Shown here piece after piece: positions 1 through 36,354 of a stretch of DNA of 64,000 bases. The stretch is from the NCBI RefSeq assembly GCF_040802235.1, contig NC_133165.1:44467629-44531628 (forward strand), in the 5' to 3' direction. Source of the stretch: Manis javanica. Its lineage: Eukaryota > Chordata > Mammalia > Pholidota > Manidae. Positions within the stretch are counted from its first letter, which is position 1. Each line of letters opens with the position of its first letter. The notes below the pieces were generated by a model. That model worked only from the letters and a program-made list of their open reading frames with translations. It was not told the origin of the DNA and ran no database searches. Both the position numbers and the translations under genes were made by a program.

Positions 1-530
1 ACTGCTTTTTTTTTTTATTAAGAGAAAGAAATATTATCAGAAAAGAGTACTTCCATAGCTGATTATTTGACACCCTTTAAGTGATCAACATTAAGGATAT
101 TTAAAGCATGCGTTGTTCTTTGATTTACCAATAGTTTTATCCTATAAAGGAGTAATCCCCCTTTTCTTTCTTTCTTTCTTTTTTTTTTAATCTTTAATCT
201 ACACTTACATGAAGAATACTATGTTTACTATGCTCTCCCCTATATCAGGTCCACCCTTAAAACCACATTACAGTTACTGTCCATCAGCTTAGCAAAATGT
301 TGTAGAATCACTACTTGTCCTCTCTGTGTTGTACAGCCCACCCTCCCCTTTCTCCCTCCCCCCCCATGCATGCTAATCTTCATACCCCCATTCTTCTTCC
401 CCCCACTTATCCCTCCCTGCCCACCCATCCTCCCCAGTTCCTTTCCTTTTGGTACCTGTTAGTCCATTTTTGGGTTCTGTAATTCCACTGCTGTTTTGTT
501 CCTGCAGTTTTTCCTTTGTTCTTATACTCC

Positions 531-3500
531 TCAGATGAGTGAAATCATTTGGTATTTCTCTTTCTCAACTTGGCTTATTTCACTGAGCCTAATACTCTCC
601 AGCTCCATCCATGTTGCTGCAAATGGTTGGATTTTTCCACTTCTTATGGCTGAGTAGTATTCCATTGTGTATATGTACCACATCTTCTTTATCCATTCAT
701 CTACAGATGGACATTTAGGTTGCTTCCAATTCTTGGCTATTGTAAATAGTGCTGTGATAAACATAGGGGTGCATCTGTCTTTCTCAAACTTGATTGCTGC
801 GTTTTTAGGGTAAATTCCTAGGAGTGGAATTCCTGGGTCAAATGGTAGGTCTGTTTTGAGCATTTTGATGAACCTCCATACTACTTTCCACAATGGTTGA
901 ACTAATTTACATTCCCACCAGCAGTGTAGGAGGGTTCCCCTTTCTCCACAGCCTCGCCAACATTTGTTGTTGTTTGTCTTTTGGATGGCAGCTATCCTTA
1001 CTGGTGTGAGGTGATACCTCATTGTAGTTTTAATTGGCATTTCTCTGATAATTAGCGATGTGGAGCATCTTTTCATGTGTCTGTTGGCCATCTGTATTTC
1101 TTTTTTGGAGAACTGTCTGTTCAGTTCCTCTGCCCATTTTTTAATTGGGTTATTTGTTTTTTGTTTGTTGAGGCATGTGAGCTCTTTCTATATTCTGGAT
1201 GTCAAGCCTTTATCGGATCTGTCATTTTCAAATATATTCTCCCATACTGCAGGGTTCCTTTTTGTTCTATTGATGGTGTCTTTCACTGTACAGAAGCTTT
1301 TCAGCTTAATGTAGTTCCACTTGCTCATTTTTGCTGTTGTTTTTCTTGCCCGGGGAGATATGTTCAAGAAGAGGTCACTCATGTTTATGTCTAAGAGGTT
1401 TTGCCTATGTTTTTTTCCAAGAGTTTAATGGTTTCATGACTTACATTCAAGTCTTTGATCCATTTCGAATTTACTTTTGTGTATGAGGTTAGACAGTGAT
1501 CCAGTTTCATTCTCTTACATGTAGCTGTCCAGTTTTGCCAGCACCATCTGTTGAAGAGACTGTCATTTTGCCATTGTATGTCCATGGCTCCTTTATCACA
1601 TATTAATTGACCATATATGTTTGGGTTAATTTCTGGAGTCTCTAATCTGTTCCACTGGTCTGTGGCTCTGTTCTTGTGCCAGTACCAAATTGTCTTGATT
1701 ACTATGGCTTTGTAGTAGAGCTTGAAGTTGGGGAGTGAGATCCCCCCTACTTTATTCTTCTTTTTCAGGATTGCTTTGGCTATTCAGGTTCTTTGGTGTT
1801 TCCTTATGAATTTTTGTATTATTTGTTCCAGTTCATTGAAGAATGTTGCTGGTAATTTGAGAGGGATTGCATCAAATCTGTATATTGCTTTGGGCAGGAT
1901 GGCCATTTTGATGATATTAATTCTTCCTAGCCATGAGCATGGGATGAGTTTCCATTTGTAAGTGTCTCCTTTAATTTCTCTTAAGAGTGACTTGTAGTTT
2001 TCAGAGTATAAGTCTTTTACTTCTTTGGTTAGGTTTATTCCTAGGTATTTTATTCTTTTTGATGCAATGGTGAATGGAATTGTTTTCCTGATTTCTCTTT
2101 CTATTGATTCATTGTTAGTGTATAGGAAAGCTACAGATTTCTGTGTGTTAATTTTGTATCCTGCAACTTTGCTGTATTCTGATATCAGTTCTAGTAGTTT
2201 TGGAGTGGATATTTAGGGTTTTTTATGTACAGTATCATATCATATGCAAATAGTGACAGTTTAACTTCTTCTTTACCTATCTGAATTCCTTGTATTTCTT
2301 TGTTTTGTCTGATTGCCATGGCTAGGACCTCCAGTACTATGTTAAATAACAGTGGGGAGAGTGGGCATCCCTGTCTAGTTCCTGATCTCAGAGGAAATGC
2401 TTTCAGCTTCTCGCTGCTCAGTATAATGCTAGCTGTGGGTTTAACAAATATGGCCTTTATTATGTTGAGGTACTTGCCCTTTATTCCCATTTTGCTGAGA
2501 GTTTTTATCATGAATGGATGTTGAATTTTGTCAAATGCTTTTTCAGCATGTATGGAGATGATCATGTGGTTTTTGTCTTTCTTTTTGTTGATGTGGTGGA
2601 TGATGTTGATGGATTTTCGAATGTTGTACCATCCTTGCATCCCTGGGATGAATCCCACTTGGTCATGGTGTATGATCCTTTTGATATACTGTTGAATTCT
2701 GTTTGCTAAATTTTATTGAGTATTTTTGCATCTACATTCATCAGGGATATTGGTCTGTAATTTTCTTTTTTGGTGGGGTCTTTGCCTGGTTTTGGTATTA
2801 GGGTGATGTTGGCTTCATAGAATGAGTTTGGGAGTATTCCCTCTTCTTCTATTTTTTGGAACACTTTAAGATGAATGGGTATTATGTCTTCTCTGTGTGT
2901 CTGATAAAATTCCGAGGTAAATCCGTCCGGCCCCAGGGTTTTGTTCTTGGGTAGTTTTTTGATTACCATTTCAATTTCTTTGCTCGTAACTGGTTTGTTT
3001 AACTTTTGTGTTTCTTCCTTGGTCAGTCTTGGGAGGTTGTATTTTTCTAGGAAGTTGTCCATTTCTTGTAGGTTTTCCAGCTTGTTTGGCATATAGGTTT
3101 TCATAGTAGTCTTTAATAATTCTTTCTATTTCTGTGGAGCCTGTCATGATTTTTCCATTCTCATTTCTGATTATGTTGATTTGTGTTGATTCTCTTTTTC
3201 TCTTAATAATTTTGGTTAGAGGCTTATCTATTTTGTTTATTTTCTCAAAGAACCAGCTCTTGGTTTTGTTGATTTTTGCTATTGTTTTATTCTTCTCAAT
3301 TTTATTTCTTCTCTGATCTTTATTATGTCCCTCCTTCTGCTGACTTTAGGCCTCATTTGTTCTTCTTTTTCCAGTTTCGATTATTGCGATGTTAGACTAT
3401 TCATTTGGGATTGTTCTTCCTTCTTCAAGTGTGCCTGGATTGCTATATACTTTCCTCTTAAGAGTGCTTTCACTGCGTCCCACAGAAGTTGGGGCTTTTT

Positions 3501-4367
3501 GTTGTTGTTGTCATTTGTTTCTATATATTCCTTGATCTCTATTTTAATTTGTTCATTGATCCATTGATTATTTAGTAGCATGTTGTTAAGCCTCCATGTG
3601 TTTGTGAGCCTTTTTGTTTTCTTTGTAGAATTTATTTCTACTTTTATACCTTGGTGGTCTGAAAAATTGGTTGATAGAATTTCAATATTTTGGAATTTAG
3701 TGAGGCTCTTTTTGTGAGCTAGTATGTGATCTATTCTGGAGAATGTTCCATGTTCACTTGAGAAGAATGTATATCCTGTTGCTTTTGGATGTAGAGTTCT
3801 ATAGATGTCTATTAGGTCCATCTGTTCTAGTGTGTTTTTCAGTGCCTGTGTGTCCTTACTTATTTTCTGCCCAGTGGATCTATCCTTTGGGGTGAGTGGT
3901 GTGTTGAAGTATCCTAAAATGAATGCATTGCAGTTTATTTCCCTCGTTAGTTCCGTTCGTATTTGTTTCACATATGCTGGTGCTCCTGTATTGGGTGCAT
4001 ATATATTTAGAATGGTTTTATCCTCTTGTTGGACTGAGCCCTTTATCATTATGTAGTATCCTTCTTTATCTCTTGTTACTTTCTTTGTTTTGAAGTCTAT
4101 TTTGTCTGATATTAGTACTACAACCCCTGCTTTCTTCTCACTGTTGTTTGCCTGAAATATGTTTTTCCATCCCTTGACTTTTAGTCTGTGCATGTCTTTG
4201 CACTTGAGGTGAGTTTCTTGTAAGCAGCATATAGATGGGTCTTGCTTTTTCATCCATTCTATTTCTCTGTGTCTTTTGATTGGTGCATTAAGTCCATTTA
4301 CATTTAGGGTGACTATTGAGAGATATGTACTTATTGGCATTGCAGGCTTTAGATTCGTGGTTACCAA
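531..4367 (-). pseudogene. L1-A ORF2p, frameshifted
   Basis: This is a degraded LINE-1 endonuclease/reverse-transcriptase frame. The N-terminal piece (3381-4367) keeps the endonuclease pattern with [11 protein letters not shown] and the CLQETH glutamate. The middle pieces (2706-3104, 2191-2658) hold the RT palm; the catalytic box there reads FAYDM rather than FADDM, so one catalytic Asp is lost. The last piece (531-1091) carries the CX3CX7HX4C cysteine motif. Several frame breaks separate the pieces, so no functional protein is expected. Confidence 0.9.
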
Positions 4368-4645
4368 AGGTTCAAGGTTAGCTTCTTTACTATCTTACTG
4401 CCAACTTGGCTCGCTTATTGAGCTGTTATATACACTGTCTGGAGATTCTTTTCTTCTCTCCCTTCTTATTCCTCCTCCTCTATTCTTCATATGCTGTGTG
4501 TTTTGTTCTGTGCTCTTTTTAGGAGTGCTGCCATCTAGAGCAGTCCCTGTAGGATGCCCTGTAGAGGTGGTTTGTGGGAAGCAAATTCCCTCAGCTTTTG
4601 CTTGTCTGGGAATTGTTTAATCTAGCCATCATATTTAAATGATAG

Positions 4646-5392
4646 TCATGCTGGATACAGTATCCTTGGTTCAAGGACCTTCTGTTTCATTGCATTAAAT
4701 ATATCATGCCATTCTCTTCTGGCCTGTAGGGTTTCTGTCGAGAAGTATGATGTTAGCCTGATGGGTTTTCCTTTATAGGTGACCTTTTTCTCTCTAGCTG
4801 CCTTTAAAACTCTTTCCTTGTCCTTGATCCTTGCCATTTTAATTATTATGTGTCTTGGTGTTGTCCTCCTTGGATCCTTTCTGTTGGGGGTTCTGTGTAA
4901 TTCCATGGTTTGTTCGATTATTTCCTCCCCCAGTTTGGGGAAGTTTTCAGCAATTATTTCTTCAAAGAGACTTTCTATCCCTTTTCCTCTTTCTTCATCT
5001 TCTGGTATCCCTATGATACAAATATTATTCCTTTTGGATTCGTCACATAGTTCTCTTAGTGTTGTTTCATTCCTGGAGGTCCTCTTATCTCTCTCTATGT
5101 CAGCTTCTATACGTTCCTGTTCTCTGGCTTCTATTCCTTCAATGGCCTCTTGCATCTTATCCATTGTGCTTATAAATCCTTCCAGGCATTGTTTCACTTC
5201 TGTGATCTCCTTCCTGACATCTGTGATCTCCCTCCAGACTTCATCCCATTGCTCTTGCATTTTTCTCTGCATCTCTGTCAGCATGTTCATGATTTTTATT
5301 TTGAATTCTTTTTCAGGAGGACTGGTTAGGTCTGTCTCCCTCTCAGGTGTTGTCTCTGTGATCTTTGTCTGCCTGTAGTTTTGCCTTTTCAT
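4646..5392 (-). pseudogene. L1-A ORF1p, C-terminally truncated
   Basis: This is the 248-codon reading frame for the L1 RNA-binding chaperone ORF1p. It begins MKRQNYRQTKITET, has a coiled-coil segment and then the RRM-like region. It stops at the residues EPRILYPA, where the intact L1-D protein continues for about 35 more residues of the C-terminal domain. The coiled coil has a single EMQRKMQEQWD unit, whereas L1-D has three in tandem. The protein would normally form trimers on L1 RNA in the cytoplasm. Loss of the C-terminal domain should disable RNA binding. Confidence 0.85.
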
Positions 5393-5737
5393 GGTGATAG
5401 AGATAGTTTGCAGAGCTGGTATGAGTGACCGCTGGAAGAGCTTCTCTTCTTTTTGGTTTGTGGCCTTCCTCTCCTGGGAGAATAGCGACCTCTAGTGGCT
5501 TATGCTTGGCAGCTGTGCACAGACAGGGCTTCTGCTACCTGCCCATTTTCTATGGAGTTTATCTCCACTGTTGCTGTGGGCGTGGCCTGGCTGGGGCTGC
5601 TCCTCCAAAATGGTGGATCCCCGTTGGAGGGGGAGCGGCCGGGAGGCTATTTATCTCAGTAAGGGGCCTCTGTGCTCCCTGTTGCCCAGCGGTCAGAGTG
5701 CCCAGAGATCCCCAGATTCCCTGCCTCTGTGGTGTAA

Positions 5738-6690
5738 GTGTCCTGTCCTGCCCCTTTAAGACTTCCAAAAAGCACTCTCCAAACTGAAACAACAACAGCA
5801 ACAATGAAAGAGGAAACACACACACACAAAAAAAAGGAAAAAACACGCGATTTTTTTGTCCTCATGCGCTGGTCCCAGGCACCCGCTCACCGGTCCTGCT
5901 GCCCTGCCTCCCTAGCACCGGGGTCTCTGTCCCTTCAAGGCTTCCAAAAAGCACCCGCCAAAAAAAAAAAAAAGGGAAAAACACGCCATATTGTTTGTCC
6001 TCAGGTGCTGGTCCCAGGCACCCGTTCACTAGTCCTGCCGCCCTGCTTCCCTAGCACTGGGGTCCCCATCCCTCCCAGGCCTCCAAAACACACTCGCCAA
6101 AAAAAAATGGAAAAACGCGTGACCCTCTCCATCCCCAGGCGCTGGTCCCAGGCACCTGCTCACTGGCCCTGCCGCCCTGCCGCCCTGTCTCCCTGGCACT
6201 GGGGTCCCTGTCCCCCTAAGGCCTCCAAAAAGCACTTGCCAAAGAGAAAAAAATGGGAGAAACACGTGATTTTCTTTGTCCTCAGGCACTGGCCCCAGGC
6301 CCCCGCCCACCAGTCCTGCCACCCTGCCTCCCTAGTATTGGGAAAAATGCACGATTTTCTTTGTCCCCAGGCGCCGGTCTCAGGCACCCGCTCACCAGTC
6401 TTGCTGCCCTGTTTCGCTGGTATTGGGGTCCCTATCCCTTTAAGGCTTCCAAAAAGCACTTGCCAAAAAGAGAAAAAAAAAGGGGAGGGAAACACGTGAT
6501 TTCCTCTGTCCTCAGGCGCCGGTCTCAGGCACCCACCCACCAGTCCTGCAGGGAAAAACACGTGATATTCTTTGTCCTCAGGCGCCAGTCCCAAGCACCT
6601 GCTCACCAGTCCTGCTGCCCTGCCTCCCTAGCACCGGGGTCCCTGTCCCTTTAAGGCTTCCTAAAAGCACTCGCCAAAAAAAACCCACTC
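5738..6690. repeat. L1-A 5' UTR tandem monomer array
   Basis: A repeated block is anchored by the string cttccaaaaagcac, near 5763, 5941, 6081 (diverged), 6222, 6447 and 6657. Spacings run from about 140 to 225 bases; the last full unit is 210. Each unit contains a GC-rich stretch (ggtcccaggcacccgctcacc), a ccttt(a/c)aaggcttcc segment and an A-rich end. On the plus strand a 253-codon frame (5738-6499) runs through the array. These units correspond to the monomers of L1-D. In other mammals, L1 5' UTR monomers act as promoter modules; that role is inferred here. Confidence 0.85.
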
Positions 6691-6938
6691 TGGTTTCTTT
6701 CCACCCGCCGGGAGCCGGGGGGTGGGGCACTCGGGTCATGCCCAGCCGGGGCTTGTATCTTACCCCCTTTGCAAGGCAATGGGTTCTTGCAGGTGTGGAT
6801 GTGGTCTGGATGTTGTCCTGTGTCCTTTGGTCTCTATTTTAAGAAGAGTTTTCTTTGTTATATTTTCATAGATCTATGTGTTTTTGAGAGGGGATTTCCA
6901 CTGCTCTACTCATGCCGCCATCCTGGCTCCGCCCCCCC

Positions 6939-27585: not shown

Positions 27586-27858
27586 GAGGCGGGAGCCAAG
27601 ATGGCGGCATGAGTAGAGCAGTGGAAATCTCCTCCCAAAAACACATAGAGCTATGAAAATATAACAAAGAAAAATCTTCCTAAAATAGAGACCACAGGAC
27701 ACAGGACAACATCCAGACCACATCCACACCTGCAAGAACCCAGCGCCTTGTGAAGGGGGTAAGATACAAGCCCCAGCCCGGCGGGACCCGAGCGCCCCTC
27801 CCCCCGGCTCCCGGCGGGTGGAGAGAAACCGGAGCAGTTTTTGTTTTTTTTTTTTTGG

Positions 27859-28640
27859 CGAGCGCTTTTTGGAAGCCTTAGAGGGACGGGCCCCCATTGC
27901 TGGGGAGGCAGGGTGGCGGGACCGGTGAGGAGGTGCCTGGGAACGGCGCCGGAGGACAAAGAATATCCCGCGTTTCTCCCTGCGAGACCTGGGGGCGGGT
28001 GCCTGAGACCGGTGCCTGAGGACGGAGGAGGTCGCGCATTTTTCCCCTTTTTTTTTTTTTCTCTTTTTGGCGAGTGCTTTTTGGAAGCCTTGAAGGGACG
28101 GGGACCCCAGTGCTAGGGAGGCACGGTGGCGGGACTGGTGAGCGGGTGGCTGGGACCGGCGCCTGAGGACAAAGAATATCCCCCGTTTTTCCCTGCGGGA
28201 CCGGTGGGCGGGTGCCTGAGACCGGCACTTGAGGACAGAGGAAATCGCGCGTTTTTCCCCTTTTTTTTTTCTCTTTTCTGCGAGTGCTTTTTGGAAGCCT
28301 AAAAGGGACAGGGACCCCGGTGCTAGGGAGGCAGGGCGGCGGGACTGGTGAGCGGGTGCCTGGGACCGGCACCTGAGGACAAAGAATATCCCGCATTTTT
28401 CCCTGTGGGACCGGTGGGTGGGTGCCTGAGACCGGCACCTGAGGACGGAAGAAATCGCGCGTTTTTCCCCTTTTTTTTCTCTCTTTTTGCCGAGTGCTTT
28501 TTGGAAGCCTTGAAGGGACAGGGACCCCAGTGCTAGGGAGGCAGGGCGGCGGGACTGGTGAGCGGGTGCGTGGGACCAGTGCCTGAGGACCAAGAATATT
28601 GAGCGTTCCTTCCCTGCGGGACCGGTGGGTGGGTGCTTTT
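27859..28640. repeat. L1-D 210-bp tandem monomers
   Basis: The string cgag(t/c)gctttttggaagcc recurs at 27859, 28071, 28281 and 28491, spaced 212, 210 and 210 bases apart. A truncated unit follows at about 28630, and a diverged one at about 28815. Each unit carries a T-run, a GGGACGGGGACCCC-like GC block, two copies of GGGTGCCTG(G/A)GACCGGC and CpG-rich segments. Because 210 is divisible by three, reading frames persist across units. Confidence 0.92.
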
Positions 28641-28855
28641 TGGAAGCCTTGAAAGGACAGGGACCCTGGTGCTAGGGAGACAGGGCAGCAGGACCAGTGC
28701 GCGGGTGCCTGGGACCGGCACCTGAGGGAAAAAAAAAAAAAAATCGCGTGTTTTTTCTTTTTTTTTTTCCTTTCTGTTCCCTCTCTCATTGTTGCTGTTG
28801 TTGTTTTGGTTTGGAGAGTGCTTTTTGGAAATCTTAAAGGGGCAGGACAGGTCAC
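27878..28855 (-). other. Long antisense ORF in the L1-D monomer array (325 codons)
   Basis: The open frame on the minus strand starts MTCPAPLRFPKS and repeats a unit of about 70 residues once per monomer, with motifs like CPQ(V/A)PVSGTRPPVPQGK and PSRLPKSTRQKE. It is rich in Pro, Arg and Lys. A second antisense frame (27514-28593, 359 codons) overlaps it in another phase. Human L1 has an antisense ORF0 in its 5' UTR, but there is no sequence similarity I can claim. It may be only a by-product of a stop-poor, GC-rich repeat whose length is a multiple of three. Confidence 0.3.
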
Positions 28856-29196
28856 TTAGACCAGAAGCAGGGAATCTGGGGATCTCTGGGCACTCTAACC
28901 CCCTGGGCAGCAGGGAGCACAGAGGCCCCTTACGGAGATAAATAGTCTCCTGGCTGCTCCCCCTCCAACGGGGCTCCACCATTTTGGAGGAACAGCCCCA
29001 GCCAGGCCAAGCCCACAGCAACAGTGGAGATAAACCCCAAAGCAACTGGGCAGGAAGCAGAAGCCCTGTCTGCGCACAGCTGCCCAGCACAAGCCACTAG
29101 AGGTCGCTATTCTCCCAGGAAAAGGCTACAAACCAACAAGAAGGGAAGCTCTTCCAGCGGTCACTTGTACCAGCTCTGCAGACTATCTCTATCACC

Positions 29197-30120
29197 ATGA
29201 AAAGGCAAAACTACAGGCAGACAAAGATCACAGAGACAACACCTGAGAAGGAGACAAACCTAACTAGTCCTCCTGAAAAAGAATTCAAAATAAAAATCAT
29301 GAACATGCTGACAGAGATGCAGAAAAAAATGCAAGAGCAATGGGATGAGATGCAGAGAAAAATGCAAGAGCAGTGGGATGAGATGCAGAGAAAAATGCAA
29401 GAGCAGTGGGATGAAGTCCGGAAGGAGATCACAGATGTCAGGAAAGAGATCACAGAAGTGAAACAATCCCTGGAAGGATTTATAAGCAGAATGGATAAGA
29501 TGCAAGAGGCCATTGAAGGAATAGAAGCCAGAGAACAGGAACGTATAGAAGCTGACATAGAGAGAGATAAAAGGATCTCCAGGAATGAAACAACACTAAG
29601 AGAAATATGTGACGAATACAAAAGGAAAAACATTCGTATTATAGGGATACCAGAAGAGGAAGAAAGAGGAAAAGGGATAGAAAGTGTCTTTGAAGAAATA
29701 ATTGCTGAAAACTTCCCCAAACTGGGGGAGGAAATAATCGAACAGACCATGGAATTATACAGAACCCCCAACAGAAAGGATCCAAGGAGGACAACACCAA
29801 GACACATAATAATTAAAATGGCAAGGATCAAGGACAAGGAAAGAGTTTTAAAGGCAGCTAGAGAGAAAAAGGTCACCTATAAAGGAAAACCAATCAGGCT
29901 AACATCAGACTTCTCAACAGAAACCCTACAGGCCAGAAGAGAATGGCATGATATACTTAATGCAATGAAACAGAAGGGCCTTGAACCAAGGATACTGTAT
30001 CCAGCACGACTATCATTTAAATATGATGGTGGGATCAAACAATTCCCAGACAAGCAAAAGCTGAGGGAATTTGCTTCCCACAAACCACCTCTACAGGGCA
30101 TCCTACAGGGACTGCTCTAG
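29197..30120 (+). CDS. L1-D ORF1p, intact RNA-binding chaperone (307 aa)
   Basis: This protein coats L1 RNA as a trimer in cytoplasmic ribonucleoprotein particles and acts as a nucleic-acid chaperone during target-primed reverse transcription. It starts MKRQNYRQTKITETTPEKE. Residues about 30-130 form a Glu/Lys/Gln-rich coiled coil, and residues 40-72 are three tandem 11-residue units (EMQ-K/R-KMQEQWD). The RRM-like domain follows at about 140-240 (IIGIPEEEE and HIIIKMARIKDKERVLKAAREK). The C-terminal domain occupies about 240-307, with ARREWHDILNAMKQKGLEPR and FPDKQKLREF. The ATG is in the position expected for the family, and the frame is free of stops. ORF2 begins 168 bases downstream. Confidence 0.95.
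   Translation: MKRQNYRQTKITETTPEKETNLTSPPEKEFKIKIMNMLTEMQKKMQEQWDEMQRKMQEQWDEMQRKMQEQWDEVRKEITDVRKEITEVKQSLEGFISRMDKMQEAIEGIEAREQERIEADIERDKRISRNETTLREICDEYKRKNIRIIGIPEEEERGKGIESVFEEIIAENFPKLGEEIIEQTMELYRTPNRKDPRRTTPRHIIIKMARIKDKERVLKAAREKKVTYKGKPIRLTSDFSTETLQARREWHDILNAMKQKGLEPRILYPARLSFKYDGGIKQFPDKQKLREFASHKPPLQGILQGLL
29314..29412 (+). repeat. Three tandem 33-bp (11-residue) units in ORF1
   Basis: The units are 29314-29346, 29347-29379 and 29380-29412, and each encodes EMQ-K/R-KMQEQWD. They are nearly identical at the DNA level. L1-A has one unit at the same place, so the array grew by two units, or contracted in L1-A. Eleven residues is a hendecad, a natural coiled-coil period. Confidence 0.9.
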
Positions 30121-30288
30121 ATGGGAGCACCCCTAAAAAGAGCACAGAACAAAACACACAACATATGAAGAATGGAGGAGGAGGAATAAGAAGGGAGAGA
30201 AGAAAAGACTCTCCAGACAGTGTATATAACAGCTCAATAAGCGAGCTAAGTTAGGCAGTAAGATACTAAAGAAGCTAACCTTGAACCT

Positions 30289-33200
30289 TTGGTAACCACG
30301 AATCTAAAGCCTGCAATGGCAATAAGTACATATCTTTCAATAGTCACCCTAAATGTAAATGGACTTAATGCACCAATCAAAAGACTTAGAGTAATAGAAT
30401 GGATAAAAAAGCAAGACCCATCTATATGCTGCTTACAAGAAACTCACCTTAAACCCAAAGATAAGCATAGACTAAAAGTCAAGGGATGGAAAAACATATT
30501 TCAGGCAAACAACAGTGAGAAGAAAGCAGGGGTTGCAGTACTAATATCAGACAAAATAGACTTCAAAACAAAGAAAGTAACAAGAGATAAAGAAGGCCAC
30601 TACATAATGATAAAGGGCTTAGTCCAACAAGAGGATATAACCATTCTAAATATATATGCACCCAATACAGGAGCACCAGCATATGTGAAGCAAATACTAA
30701 CAGAACTAAAGAGGGAAATAGACTGCAATGCATTCATTGTAGGAGACTTCAACACACCACTCACCCCAAAGGATAGATCCACCGGGCAGAAAATAAGTAA
30801 AGACACACAGGCACTGAACAACACACTAGAACAGATGGACCTAATAGACATCTATAGAACTTTACATCCAAAAGCAACAGGATATACATTCTTCTCAAGT
30901 GCACATGGAACATTCTCCAGAATAGACCACATACTAGCTCACAAAAAGAGCCTCAGTAAATTCCACAATATTGAAATTCTACCAACCAATTTTTCAGACC
31001 ACAAAGGTATGAAAGTAGAAATAAATTCTACAAAGAAAACAAAAAGGCTCACAAACACATGGAGGCTTAACAACATGCTACTAAATAATCAATGGATCAA
31101 TGAACAAATCAAAATAGAGATCAAGGAATATATAGAAACAAATGACAACAACAACACTAAGCCCCAACTTCTGTGGGATGCAGCGAAAGCAGTCTTAAGA
31201 GGAAAGTATATAGCAATCCAGGCACACTTGAAGAAGGAAGAACAATCCCAAATGAATAGTCTAACATCACAATTATTAAAACTGGAAAAAGAAGAACAAA
31301 TGAGGCCTAAAGTCAGCAGAAGGAGGGACATAATAAAGATCAGAGAAGAAATAAACAAAATTGAGAAGAATAAAACAATAGCAAAAATCAACAAAACCAA
31401 GAGCTGGTTCTTTGAGAAAATAAACAAAATAGATAAGCCTCTAGCCCAACTTATTAAGAGAAAAAGAGAGTCAACACAAATCAACATAATCAGAAATGAG
31501 AATGGAAAAATCACGACAGACTCCACAGAAATACAAAGAATTATTAAAGACTACTATGAAAACCTATATGCCAACAAGCTGGAAAACCTAGAAGAAATGG
31601 ACAACTTCCTAGAAAAATACAACCTCCCAAGACTGACCAAGGAAGAAACACAAAAGTTAAACAAACCAATTACAAGCAAAGAAATTGAAACAGTAATCAA
31701 AAAACTACCCAAGAACAAAACCCCGGGGCCGGACGGATTTACCTCGGAATTTTATCAGACACACAGAGAAGACATAATACCCATTCTCCTTAAAGTGTTC
31801 CACAAAATAGAAGAAGAGGGAATACTCCCAAACTCATTCTATGAAGCCAACATCACCCTAATACCAAAACCAGGCAAAGACCCCACCAAAAAAGAAAATT
31901 ACAGACCAATATCCCTGATGAACGTAGATGCAAAAATACTCAATAAAATATTAGCAAACAGAATTCAACAGTATATCAAAAGGATCATACACCATGACCA
32001 AGTGGGGTTCATCCCAGGGATGCAAGGATGGTACAACATTCGAAAATCCATCAACATCATCCACCACATCAACAAAAAGAAAGACAAAAACCACATGATC
32101 ATCTCCATAGATGCTGAAAAAGCATTTGACAAAATTCAACATCCATTCATGATGAAAACTCTCAGCAAAATGGGAATAGAGGGCAAGTACCTCAACATAA
32201 TAAAGGCCATATATGATAAACCCACAGCCAGCATTATACTGAACAGCGAGAAGCTGAAAGCATTTCCACTGAGATCGGGAACCAGACAGGGATGCCCACT
32301 CTCCCCACTGTTATTTAACATAGTACTGGAGGTCCTAGCCACGGCAATCAGACAAAACAAAGAAATACAAGGAATCCAGATTGGTAAAGAAGAAGTTAAA
32401 CTGTCACTATTTGCAGATGATATGATACTGTACATAAAAAACCCTAAAGACTCCACTCCAAAACTACTAGAACTGATATCGGAATACAGCAAAGTTGCAG
32501 GATACAAAATCAACACACAGAAATCTGTAGCTTTCCTATACACTAACAACGAATCAATAGAAAGAGAAATCAGGAAAACAATTCCATTCACCATTGCATC
32601 AAAAAGAATAAAATACCTAGGAATAAACCTAACCAAGGAAGTGAAAGACTTATACTCTGAAAACTACAAGTCACTCTTAAGAGAAATTAAAGGGGACACT
32701 AATAAATGGAAACTCATCCCATGCTCATGGCTAGGAAGAATTAATATCGTCAAAATGGCCATCCTGCCGAAAGCAATATACAAATTTGATGCAATCCCTC
32801 TCAAATTACCAGCAACATTCTTCAATGAATTGGAACAAATAATTCAAAAATTCATATGGAAACACCAAAGACCCCGAATAGCCAAAGCAATCCTGAAAAA
32901 GAAGAATAAAGTAGGGGGGATCTCACTCCCCAACTTCAAGCTCTACTACAAAGCCATAGTAATCAAGACAATTTGGTACTGGCACAAGAACAGAGCCACA
33001 GACCAGTGGAACAGATTAGAGACCCCAGAAATTAACCCAAACATATATGGTCAATTAATATTTGATAAAGGAGCCATGGACATACAATGGCAAAATGACA
33101 GTCTCTTCAACAGATGGTGCTGGCAAAACTGGACAGCTACATGTAGGAGAATGAAACTGGACCATTGTCTAACCCCATATACAAAGGTAAACTCAAAATG

Positions 33201-34131
33201 GATCAAAGACCTGAATGTAAGTCACGAAACCATTAAACTCTTGGAAAAAAACATAGGCAAAAACCTCTTAGACATAAACATGAGTGATCTCTTCTTGAAC
33301 ATATCTCCCCGGGCAAGGAAAACAACAGCAAAAATGAGCAAGTGGGACTACATTAAGCTGAAAAGCTTCTGTACAGCGAAAGACACCATCAATAGAACAA
33401 AAAGGAACCCTACAGTATGGGAGAATATATTTGAAAATGACAGATCTGATAAAGGCTTGACGTCCAGAATATATAAAGAGCTCACACGCCTCAACAAACA
33501 AAAAACAAATAACCCAATTAAAAAATGGGCAGAGGAACTGAACAGACAGTTCTCCAAAAAAGAAATACAGATGGCCAAGAGACACATGAAAAGATGCTCC
33601 ACATCGCTAATTATCAGAGAAATGCAAATTAAAACTACAATGAGGTATCACCTCACACCAGTAAGGATAGCTGCCATCCAAAAGACAAACAACAACAAAT
33701 GTTGGCGAGGCTGTGGAGAAAGGGGAACCCTCCTACACTGCTGGTGGGAATGTAAATTAGTTCAACCATTGTGGAAAGCAGTATGGAGGTGCATCAAAAT
33801 GCTCAAAACAGACCTACCATTTGACCCAGGAATTCCACTCCTAGGAATTTACCCTAAGAACGCAGCAATCAAGTTTGAGAAAGACAGATGCACTCCTATG
33901 TTTATTGCAGCACTATTTACAATAGCCAAGAATTGGAAGCAACCTAAATGTCCATCTGTAGATGAATGGATAAAGAAGATGTGGTACATATACACAATGG
34001 AATACTACTCAGCCATAAGAAGTGGAAAAATCCAACCATTTGCAGCAACATGGATGGAGCTGGAGAGTATTATGCTCAGTGAAATAAGCCAAGCGGAGAA
34101 AGAGAAATACCAAATGATTTCACTCATCTGA
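30289..34131 (+). CDS. L1-D ORF2p, intact endonuclease/reverse transcriptase (1280 aa)
   Basis: This enzyme nicks genomic DNA at TTTT/A sites and reverse-transcribes L1 RNA from the nick. The N-terminal AP-like endonuclease shows Asn22 (TLNVN), Glu51 (CLQETH), the VGDFNTPL and RIDHILAHK segments, and the C-terminal SDHKG His near residue 238. The RT domain spans about 490-780, with [30 protein letters not shown] and the catalytic FADDM box (Asp710/Asp711 at 32416-32421). The C-terminal zinc-like motif CX3CX7HX4C is at residues 1138-1155. Length matches other mammalian ORF2 proteins (about 1275 aa). Met10 (30316) is an alternative start. No stop or frameshift is present. Confidence 0.96.
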
Positions 34132-34664
34132 GGAGTATAGGAACAAAGGAAAAACTGAAGGAACAAAACAGCAGCAGAATTACAGAACCCAAAAATGGAC
34201 TAACAGGTACCAAAGGGAAAGGAACTGGGGAGGATGGGTGGGCAGGGAGGGATAAGGGGGGGGAAGAAGAACGGGGGTATTAAGATTAGCATGCATGGGG
34301 GGGAGGGAGAAAGGGGAGGGTGGGCTGCACAACACAGAGAGGACAAGTAGTGACTCTACAACATTTTGCTAAGCTGATGGACAGTAACCGTAATGTGGTT
34401 GTTAGGGGGGACCTGATATAGGGGAGAGCATAGTAAACATAGTATTCTTCAGGTAAGTGTAGATTAAAAATTTAAAAAAAAAAAGAAAGAAAGAAAGAAA
34501 AGGGGGATTACTCCTTAACAGGATAAAACTATTGGTAAATCAAAGATCAACGCATGCTTTAAATATCCTTAATGTTGATCACTTAAAGGGTGTCAGATGA
34601 TCAGCTATGGAGGTACTCTTTTCTGATAATATTCCTTTCTCTTAATTAAAAAAAAAAAAAAAAA
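34132..34664 (+). other. L1-D 3' UTR with G-rich tract and first A-tract
   Basis: It has a purine/G-rich stretch (about 34228-34330) with several runs of four or more Gs, the class of G-quadruplex-prone tract found in mammalian L1 3' UTRs. An (AAAG)n run lies near 34483-34503, and A17 ends the segment at 34648-34664. It is nearly identical to the reverse complement of bases 6-450. Confidence 0.85.
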
Positions 34665-36304
34665 GCAGTTACTGTGTGCTGACCTCCAATGAGTTCTGCA
34701 CAGTGGTATAGAGGGCATGTCAAAGTGTGGGCAAAGGGTCTGTTTGTTTCTACGCAGAAGATCAAGGCCTAGCTTGGATACCCAGAAAATGAACTAAGAT
34801 ACGATATGAGGAGGAGCTTCCGGCATCAGCACTCTCTGGAGGACTCGTGCCGGGGGATGATCATCAAAAAGCCTCCACAGGGATCCGGACGATGCTGCGG
34901 TTGTGGCTGCATCCAGCCCACCGTCTCCTGGACTTGCCATAAGAAGGAGGAGGGAGATGTCTAGGCTGGCATGTGCATACAGTGAGACAACGAATTTGAC
35001 TGGATGTGTACTGTTGGAACTCAACCAGGAGTTGGGAGGGGTGCAAGTTGTAGCACCCCAAAATCTCATGACTATAGACTATCTATGGTTAAAAGAACAT
35101 ATGGGATGTGAACAGATCCCAGAAATGGGCTGCTTTAATTTGTCTGATGGTTCAAGTACAGTTGGAAAATATCCATCATATCATAGATAAATTTTCACAA
35201 ATGCCTAGGGTGCCTAAATGGTTTTCTTGGCTTCACTGGAGATGGCTGGTAATTATAGATTTGCTTTGTTTATGTCACCGTATTCCTATTATGTTAATAT
35301 GTGTGTGCAAATTAGTTAGTAGTTTAAAACCTATACATACTTAAGGTACTATACAAGAAGATATGTCAAAGAAATAATCAATCCTCCCAAGTTTCCTTCA
35401 TATGCTACATCTATAGCTTTTCTTCTTCCTTCCTAATTACAAACCTTAAATAGAATTCGTGCCTCATATCGAATTTACCGAGTATCATAATTCCTCCAGG
35501 TGGTAAAGATACCTCGAGACAAGTGCTGGGCATAGAAGCCACAGGGCATAAATCTGCAAAGAAGTAAAAAGCTAACCTTTGCAAACAATATGGCTTCTCT
35601 CTCACTTACCAACTTTACATTTCCCTGTATGGCCCCGGAAGATGACTGGTTAGCCAGAGACGGGTAAGATTCCTCAAGGGAGGAACAACCTAAGACAGGC
35701 ACAGTCGCAGGGGGGCCATCAGGTGAGAATTTGGGGATCAACAGAGGTGAGGCTCAGAACCTCACCCCCCCTGCTTTGAGAGAAATCTTCTGCATCCGTG
35801 GATGTCTTGCTGCCCTTGTCTAGCCTGGATTAATACTTAGTCCATAGGCACACACCTGATCATCTGATCATCTACATTTGCCTTCTTACAGCGCTAAACT
35901 ATGTTTTCTACCTTTATCTTGCATCTACCTACCACTTCAGCATTTTATTAAAAATAAAAATAATAATAATAATAGGAGAAATGTGGGATCAACATATAAA
36001 TCAAGTACAAAAATCAAATGAATATTCATATTTGACCTGATGGTTTATAGGTCATATTGCATGATCAAAACCGAAAGTTTCTGTGATGAATGCCCTTGTA
36101 CTGTTCACCATGTAAGAATTTATTCACTCTGTAAGAATTCGTTCACCATGTAAGAACTTGTTCGTTATGCTTCAGAAGATTGGAGACTGACGAGAATTAG
36201 GCTTGAGATGGATTAATGATTGTACATTGAGCATTGACCCCCCTATACTGAATTTTATTGTTGTTAACAACCATTTGATCAATAAATATGAGAGATGCCC
36301 TCTC
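34665..36304 (+). mobile_element. Retroviral 3' end attached to L1-D (env fragment, PPT, U3-R, polyA)
   Basis: Bases 34903-35343 contain a decayed envelope transmembrane-subunit fragment in two frames, ending in a hydrophobic segment with WFSWLHWRW just before it. A polypurine tract AGGAGAAA (35974-35981) lies directly before a TG start (35982). A U3-R-like region follows with AATAAA at 36281-36286, and an A-run starts 18 bases later. U5 is absent. That is the structure of a polyadenylated retroviral mRNA copied as cDNA, not an integrated provirus. The env resembles betaretrovirus-like envelopes, but this is uncertain. No functional protein is present. Confidence 0.7.
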
Positions 36305-36354
36305 AAAAAAAAAAAAAAAAATAACCAAACAAAAAAAAAAAAAAAAAAAAACAG
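36305..36354 (+). repeat. Internal A-rich tract
   Basis: Two A-runs are separated by ataaccaaac. It is interpreted as the former poly(A) tail of the retroviral cDNA segment. Confidence 0.8.

Follow-up and report, generated by a model that had tools for sequence, protein, structure and literature searches.

The window analysed here, a stretch of 64,000 nucleotides of the Malayan pangolin (Manis javanica) genome (C10:44467629-44531628; 2.56 Gb in total, 2,559,957,944 bases), harbours two copies of one L1 family, L1-D on the plus strand and the older L1-A on the minus strand. Their features are given below in window coordinates, together with the observations on which each assignment is based.

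27588..34467, plus strand: body of L1-D, comprising a 5'UTR with ~210-nt repeats, ORF1, ORF2 and the 3'UTR (homology to L1-A and other copies)
29197..30120, plus strand: L1-D ORF1, open, 307 aa (Pfam Transposase_22, E=1.8e-25)
30289..34131, plus strand: L1-D ORF2, open, 1280 aa from a TTG or 1271 codons from the first ATG (Pfam RVT_1, E=7.9e-47; Exo_endo_phos, E=4.3e-24)
34468..34499, plus strand: first A-rich tract, at which the ancestral L1 3'UTR ends (the older L1-B is homologous up to this point)
34500..34647, plus strand: unit X, a short added 3' segment ending with ATTAAA at the A-run, AATAAA in L1-A (X present in 30/30 exact junction loci)
34648..34664, plus strand: second A-tract, the L1/retroviral junction (sequence; junction pattern counts)
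34665..36304, plus strand: tail, a retroviral 3' end with env fragment, purine tract, U3 and R (sequence; alignment to L1-A and 30 loci)
34861..35340, plus strand: remnant of the env transmembrane subunit (TM), frame broken in L1-D (match to ASLV TM)
35974..35981, plus strand: putative polypurine tract directly before the TG at 35982 (sequence)
35982..36304, plus strand: U3-R-like region without U5 (sequence; counts of the R-end 28-mer)
36281..36286, plus strand: AATAAA poly(A) signal, 18 nt ahead of the A-run (sequence)
36305..36321, plus strand: terminal A-run of the L1-D insertion (sequence)
1..6930, minus strand: L1-A, older copy of the same family, with its tail left of the window at L001:9634-7992 (alignment)

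The order of the elements is thus L1 3'UTR, A-rich tract, X, A-tract, env-TM remnant with U3 and R, and A-tail, with two internal A-tracts in L1-D, one before and one after X. L1-B, which is older, stops at the first A-rich tract and has neither X nor the tail. A preliminary description of this DNA had read positions 34665-36304 as an env fragment, a purine tract with adjacent TG, a U3-R region, AATAAA and an A-run, without U5, following directly upon the L1-D A-tract; all of these parts are present in the sequence, and the tail does begin at 34665, immediately behind the A-tract at 34648-34664. Unit X and the A-rich tract ahead of it had been overlooked in that description.

Both L1-D reading frames are open and carry the domains expected of LINE-1 (an RBD and a dsRBD-like domain in ORF1, endonuclease and reverse transcriptase in ORF2). 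Among 13 other near-full-length copies, both ORFs are likewise open in five (L036, L041, L044, L045 and L047); with open frames in several copies, the family of L1 plus tail may therefore be active at present. The 5'UTR of L1-D contains four repeats of ~210 nt (window 27838-28680) and the corresponding array of L1-A (5826-6688) is spaced differently, showing that the 5'UTR repeat units are variable within this L1 lineage.

The retroviral assignment of the tail was examined by homology. The segment at window 34861-35187 matches the transmembrane subunit of ASLV (4jpr) with E=5.5e-6, and the L1-A copy matches it with E=6.2e-8; a Pfam search with two env-side pieces of L1-A returned no family. 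These matches suggest that the tail probably originated from an alpha-like class II provirus.

L1-A touches the left edge of the window, where five bases beyond its A-tail had been taken as the possible start of the same segment. Extension to the left of base 1 demonstrates that this match was not due to chance: on the minus strand, the 1.64-kb retroviral end recurs behind the A-tract of L1-A and is closed by an A-run of its own, and the tails of L1-A and L1-D are 95.2% identical over 1652 columns. The segment is accordingly common to both copies. L1-A with its tail lies within an older L1 and has a 14-nt duplication (one mismatch) at its borders.

Recurrence, insertion and inheritance of the L1-tail unit

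The junction pattern AAAAAAGCAGTTACTGTGTGCTGACC was searched throughout the genome with at most two mismatches and yielded 5441 forward and 5534 reverse matches (10,975 in all), whereas the reversed control pattern gave none on either strand. The tail start by itself has 11,185 matches, an X 29-mer 13,220 (at most two mismatches), an L1 3'UTR 31-mer 9,093 and an R-end 28-mer 27,656 (at most two mismatches); all of these counts are to be read as orders of magnitude, since the patterns differ in length and in their tolerance for age, and the excess of R ends over the other marks is of the kind produced by 5' truncation of L1 insertions. Within the first 12.4 Mb of contig C1, where exact matches only were listed, the exact tail mark is in place for 39 of 45 exact X marks and downstream of 38 of 43 exact L1 3'UTR marks; in this listing, 6/45 and 5/43, respectively, are without an exact tail mark. 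The junction is therefore far from unique, with ~11,000 recurrences, and separate target sites are found among 20 loci inspected (one pair being duplicated).

Tail starts preceded by a base other than A are rare, with 11 matches in the genome (at most one mismatch). In seven of these, the L1+X junction is the usual one apart from a few additional bases; the remaining four begin in other sequence, an outcome expected of truncation at this point or close to it.

Individual copies were fetched from the exact junction matches. The first 30 listed, all on C1 (L003-L032, a sample that leans young), comprise X and the tail in every case and L1 3' sequence in 29, with tails 91.7-99.6% identical to that of the window. 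Insertions were delimited in 20 fetched loci (L033-L052); the complete set, L003-L052, consists of exact-junction copies from the start of one contig and is likewise young-leaning, and L003/L008 (= L033/L037) count as a single duplicated locus. At L033 (C1:0.93 Mb) and L037 (C1:2.22 Mb), a segmental duplication ~1.3 Mb apart contains the same L1-tail insertion. An internal deletion of ~400 nt, located just before and into U3, was observed in the tail of L013.

Perfect duplications of 13-17 nt (as scored) surround L1 and tail together in 13 of the 20 loci L033-L052 (19 independent), and L052 adds an imperfect one. In 378 cross-locus control pairs, a score of at least 10 was reached only 7 times, the best being 14, as compared to scores of at least 13 in 13/20 real loci. 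For L041, L050 and L051, the 3' end was set after a second retroviral piece once the duplication match there had been seen. No target duplication was found for L034, L042, L043 and L047 within the 20-locus set, nor was a clean one found around the L1-D insertion. The hallmark of L1 insertion, an A-tail together with a target duplication beginning with A's, lies behind the retroviral end in 13/20 loci. The elements hence display what characterizes an L1 3' transduction lineage, namely non-L1 sequence behind an A-tract, a second A-tail, one duplication around the whole and several copies.

To what extent the tail shares the history of the L1 in front of it was evaluated by comparing pairwise distances for 28 of 32 loci (L011, L013, L017 and L020 were dropped, being too short or broken). 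Distances in L1 and in the tail are correlated with r=0.91 and a slope of 0.95, and 0/5000 permutations reach this r. Upon removal of L008 and L005 (the duplicate and the most diverged copy), r is 0.80, and upon removal of the oldest-looking copies (L003, L005, L008, L014 and L1-A) it is 0.75, again with 0/5000 permutations in either case. The agreement leans on diverged copies, yet does not depend on them, and the tail is co-inherited with L1.

Taken together, the ~11,000 junctions, the co-inherited tail and the duplications enclosing L1 plus tail in 13/20 loci bear out the proposal that an L1 subfamily carries the retroviral end as a heritable 3' extension and not as the result of a one-off event.

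Polyadenylation signals and doubled retroviral ends

The preliminary description had further proposed that the tail supplies a strong polyadenylation signal. In line with the role as a supplier, genomic A-tails begin 16-18 nt past the terminal AATAAA in 18/19 tails (counted without L051, where the first tail stops early); as judged from the sequence, this signal is probably a strong one. We also scored the signal at the X end by script (window 34640-34653 and the same place in the 30 loci), which gave AATAAA in 4/31 copies, ATTAAA in 21/31 and neither in 6/31, one of the latter, L031, having ATTAAA at the X end with an interrupted A-run. AATAAA is thus found at the X end in 4/31 copies versus 18/19 at the terminal position. 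The copies with AATAAA at the X end are L003, L005, L008 and L014 (L003 and L008 being one locus), and also L1-A; by distance they rank among the most diverged, and L006, about equally diverged, has ATTAAA. This distribution, which comprises few independent old copies, suggests that the internal signal may have weakened after the retroviral poly(A) site took over.

In 4 of 19 independent loci (L041, L050, L051 and L033 = L037), a second retroviral piece lies inside the insertion. A perfect duplication is found behind this second piece in L041, L050 and L051, and the one in L033 (= L037), read by eye, differs by a single T. The second pieces have varied start points behind A-runs and are 85-97% identical to the young tail. 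Tandem R ends occur at four loci (one of them L033) among 100 exact R ends listed on C1, and at C1:2241795-2242564 (minus strand) the retroviral end is tripled, with three R ends in a row at a spacing of 370-372 nt. The likeliest explanation for the doubled ends is renewed read-through into older downstream copies.

Origin of the extended 3' end

The two internal A-tracts are read as the traces of two successive 3' captures. Very probably, we are dealing with an autonomous L1 subfamily whose 3' end was extended by the acquisition of X and then of a 1.64-kb retroviral transcript end. Beyond the structure, copy number, single-unit insertion, co-inheritance and open L1 frames observed here, the most likely origin is serial 3' transduction, its last step being read-through into an alpha-like class II provirus. 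According to this model, an L1 would initially have gained X at its 3' end, and a copy of L1+X would have come to lie upstream of the retroviral end in sense orientation, most likely inserted in the env gene of the class II (alpha-like) provirus. Transcription would then have run past the weak L1 signal and into the 3' LTR, where the R end provided the poly(A) site, and retrotransposition of this read-through RNA, containing the end of env, the polypurine tract, U3 and R, would have generated the founder. From then on, the retroviral site would have served as the normal 3' end of the family RNA, with reverse transcription starting from the poly(A) added there.

Sequences that might represent the source were sought at both ends of the tail. 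R ends followed by a base other than A number 61 in the genome (at most one mismatch), as compared to 27,656 R ends in total (at most two mismatches). Twelve of these 61 were read: in 11, an A-run or A-rich stretch begins within a few bases, and the twelfth is truncated; a recognisable U5 was found behind R in none of the 12. Similarly, no provirus carrying this junction was present among the 11 non-A-preceded tail starts and the 12 R ends read. The tail itself does not have the organization of a provirus or solo LTR, that is, U3, R and U5 within a 4-6-bp duplication. Two candidates were discarded: L073, an R end without A's considered as a possible LTR, proved to be truncated, and neither an A-tail nor a duplication was seen there; L033/L037, where an ERV end 77% alike lies upstream, represent a single duplicated locus whose tail is doubled and whose upstream region differs. 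At 5000-6300 in the reversed orientation of locus L033, this ERV end resembles part of the tail and is joined to different upstream sequence and to a different region that is possibly LTR-like; it may be related to the source retrovirus. No Pfam family was matched by five ORF pieces of L033, and one gave a chance-level PDB match (E=0.31).

Several other explanations have to be weighed. The resemblance of the segment to the 3' part of a provirus might invite the view that separate proviral LTR fragments each happen to sit behind an L1, an explanation we consider next to impossible in light of an identical breakpoint in ~11,000 copies, the enclosure of L1 and tail by common duplications in 13/20 loci and the A-runs or A-rich runs into which 11 of the 12 non-A R ends read continue, the single exception having neither A-tail nor duplication. 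Equally negligible is the probability that L1-A and L1-D share the segment by segmental duplication or assembly artefact: such a duplication does exist for L033 and L037, but L1-A and L1-D lie in opposite orientations in differing target sequences, the flanks differ in 18 of the other 20 fetched loci, and variant junctions as well as variant R ends are spread over many contigs. The mode of capture is less sharply constrained. Instead of read-through, the founding event may have been a switch of template: reverse transcriptase, having begun at the poly(A) of a retroviral mRNA, would have halted at GCAGTTACTG and continued on the poly(A) tail of an L1+X RNA. A junction leading exactly from poly(A) into retroviral sequence is predicted equally by such a template jump and by read-through, and the different starting places of the second pieces behind A-runs would fit a jump; however, 3' transduction is the commoner route for L1, and the second pieces of L041 and L050 show 85-87% identity to the young tail, resembling transduced old genomic copies rather than active RNAs. 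A jump thus appears the less likely of the two, and read-through probably accounts for the junction. In either case, the tail goes back to one founding transduction (or template jump) that was heritable afterwards.

A related question is whether the tail conferred any benefit. It may have been a passive hitchhiker, copied along without advantage and without a function gained beyond that of the last poly(A) site. The tail has diverged as fast as the L1 3' end, the slope of 0.95 therefore revealing no extra constraint on the tail, and the env frame is broken in L1-D; on the other hand, the family is large and includes open-frame copies, and a weakened internal signal is found in most copies read, the terminal AATAAA being retained. 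We regard a purely passive role as possible but doubtful. Tentatively, and with slightly less than even confidence, we propose instead a major, possibly still active pangolin L1 lineage in which the native 3' end would have been replaced adaptively by a retroviral one: the retroviral poly(A) site would have taken over, the internal signals would have decayed, U3-R units would still be added by repeated read-through, and retroviral U3 would be planted with each insertion, making L1 a vector of LTR-derived regulatory sequence.

Relation to other chimeric retroelements

SVA, an element of hominoid primates, is the textbook case of env and LTR sequence serving as the mobile 3' end of a non-autonomous element. 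In excerpts of the literature, its SINE-R part is traced to HERV-K10, a class II ERV, of which it comprises the env 3' end and the 3' LTR ahead of an A-tail (PMC12593883), and SVA is described as spread by L1 proteins (PMC7353768). The pangolin tail is composed alike, of an env 3' end, LTR sequence up to the poly(A) site and an A-tail, which makes SVA SINE-R the nearest analogue. In contrast to the non-autonomous SVA, it is attached to an L1 with its own ORF1 and ORF2, derives from another ERV and resides in another mammal. In place of the non-coding 5' part of SVA (hexamers, Alu-like part, VNTR), the element has an L1 whose ORF1 and ORF2 are open; it is therefore not an SVA, and the relation is one of analogy only.

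L1 3' transductions are additions with internal A-tracts that insert as a single unit with a target duplication, and the known ones are usually single events or small lineages. The human 3' transduction lineages named in the excerpted text of PMC12593883 share with the pangolin element the internal A-tracts and insertion as one unit with a target duplication, but the pangolin addition marks ~11,000 copies and consists of a retroviral end that brings along a poly(A) site. Human chimeras of L1 with other RNAs are described as 5'-side fusions in excerpts of Law and Burns 2026 (PMC13174262); these have in common with our case the fusion with another RNA class at retrotransposition, whereas the pangolin fusion is on the 3' side and founded a subfamily. 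A chimeric L1/MaLR insert in mouse Axin1, joining partial L1 ORF2 to an LTR, is synthetic and was placed by CRISPR, unlike the natural L1 subfamily of the pangolin; in the excerpted text, its authors name template switching or transduction as ways in which such joins arise in nature (PMC6500023).

Among pangolin retroviruses, ERV-Alpha of the Chinese pangolin is reported with n=1 to 13 proviruses, 19 solo LTRs and paired LTRs (PMC12584738, in excerpt). Compared by description only, it resembles the inferred source as an alpha-like class II ERV in a pangolin, the env part of the tail matching an alpharetroviral TM, and on this description it is a plausible source. The same excerpts mention an ERV-Gamma.b9 provirus with an L1 between env and the 3' LTR, and describe no L1 family with a retroviral tail. 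A two-copy pangolin gammaretrovirus is the subject of PMC4643047, and the excerpts of this paper, PMC8288997 and PMC9604959 contain no L1 capture or retroviral-tailed L1 family. Likewise, titles and abstract starts among the matches listed in the open-licence literature included no report of such a family. For the Malayan pangolin genome, 0.96% SINE content, 19 chromosome-scale molecules and ~2.56 Gb are given in PMC11825179 (in excerpt); eight SINE-head probes had no match in 168,853 bases.

In the pangolin, the retroviral 3' end was acquired by an L1 that is itself autonomous and has since expanded to ~11,000 junction copies. The family constitutes a natural experiment on what an L1 3' end must supply, on possible selection for a better poly(A) site and on the ways in which LTR sequence can be dispersed by L1. 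Such tails may be counted as LTRs in repeat annotation.
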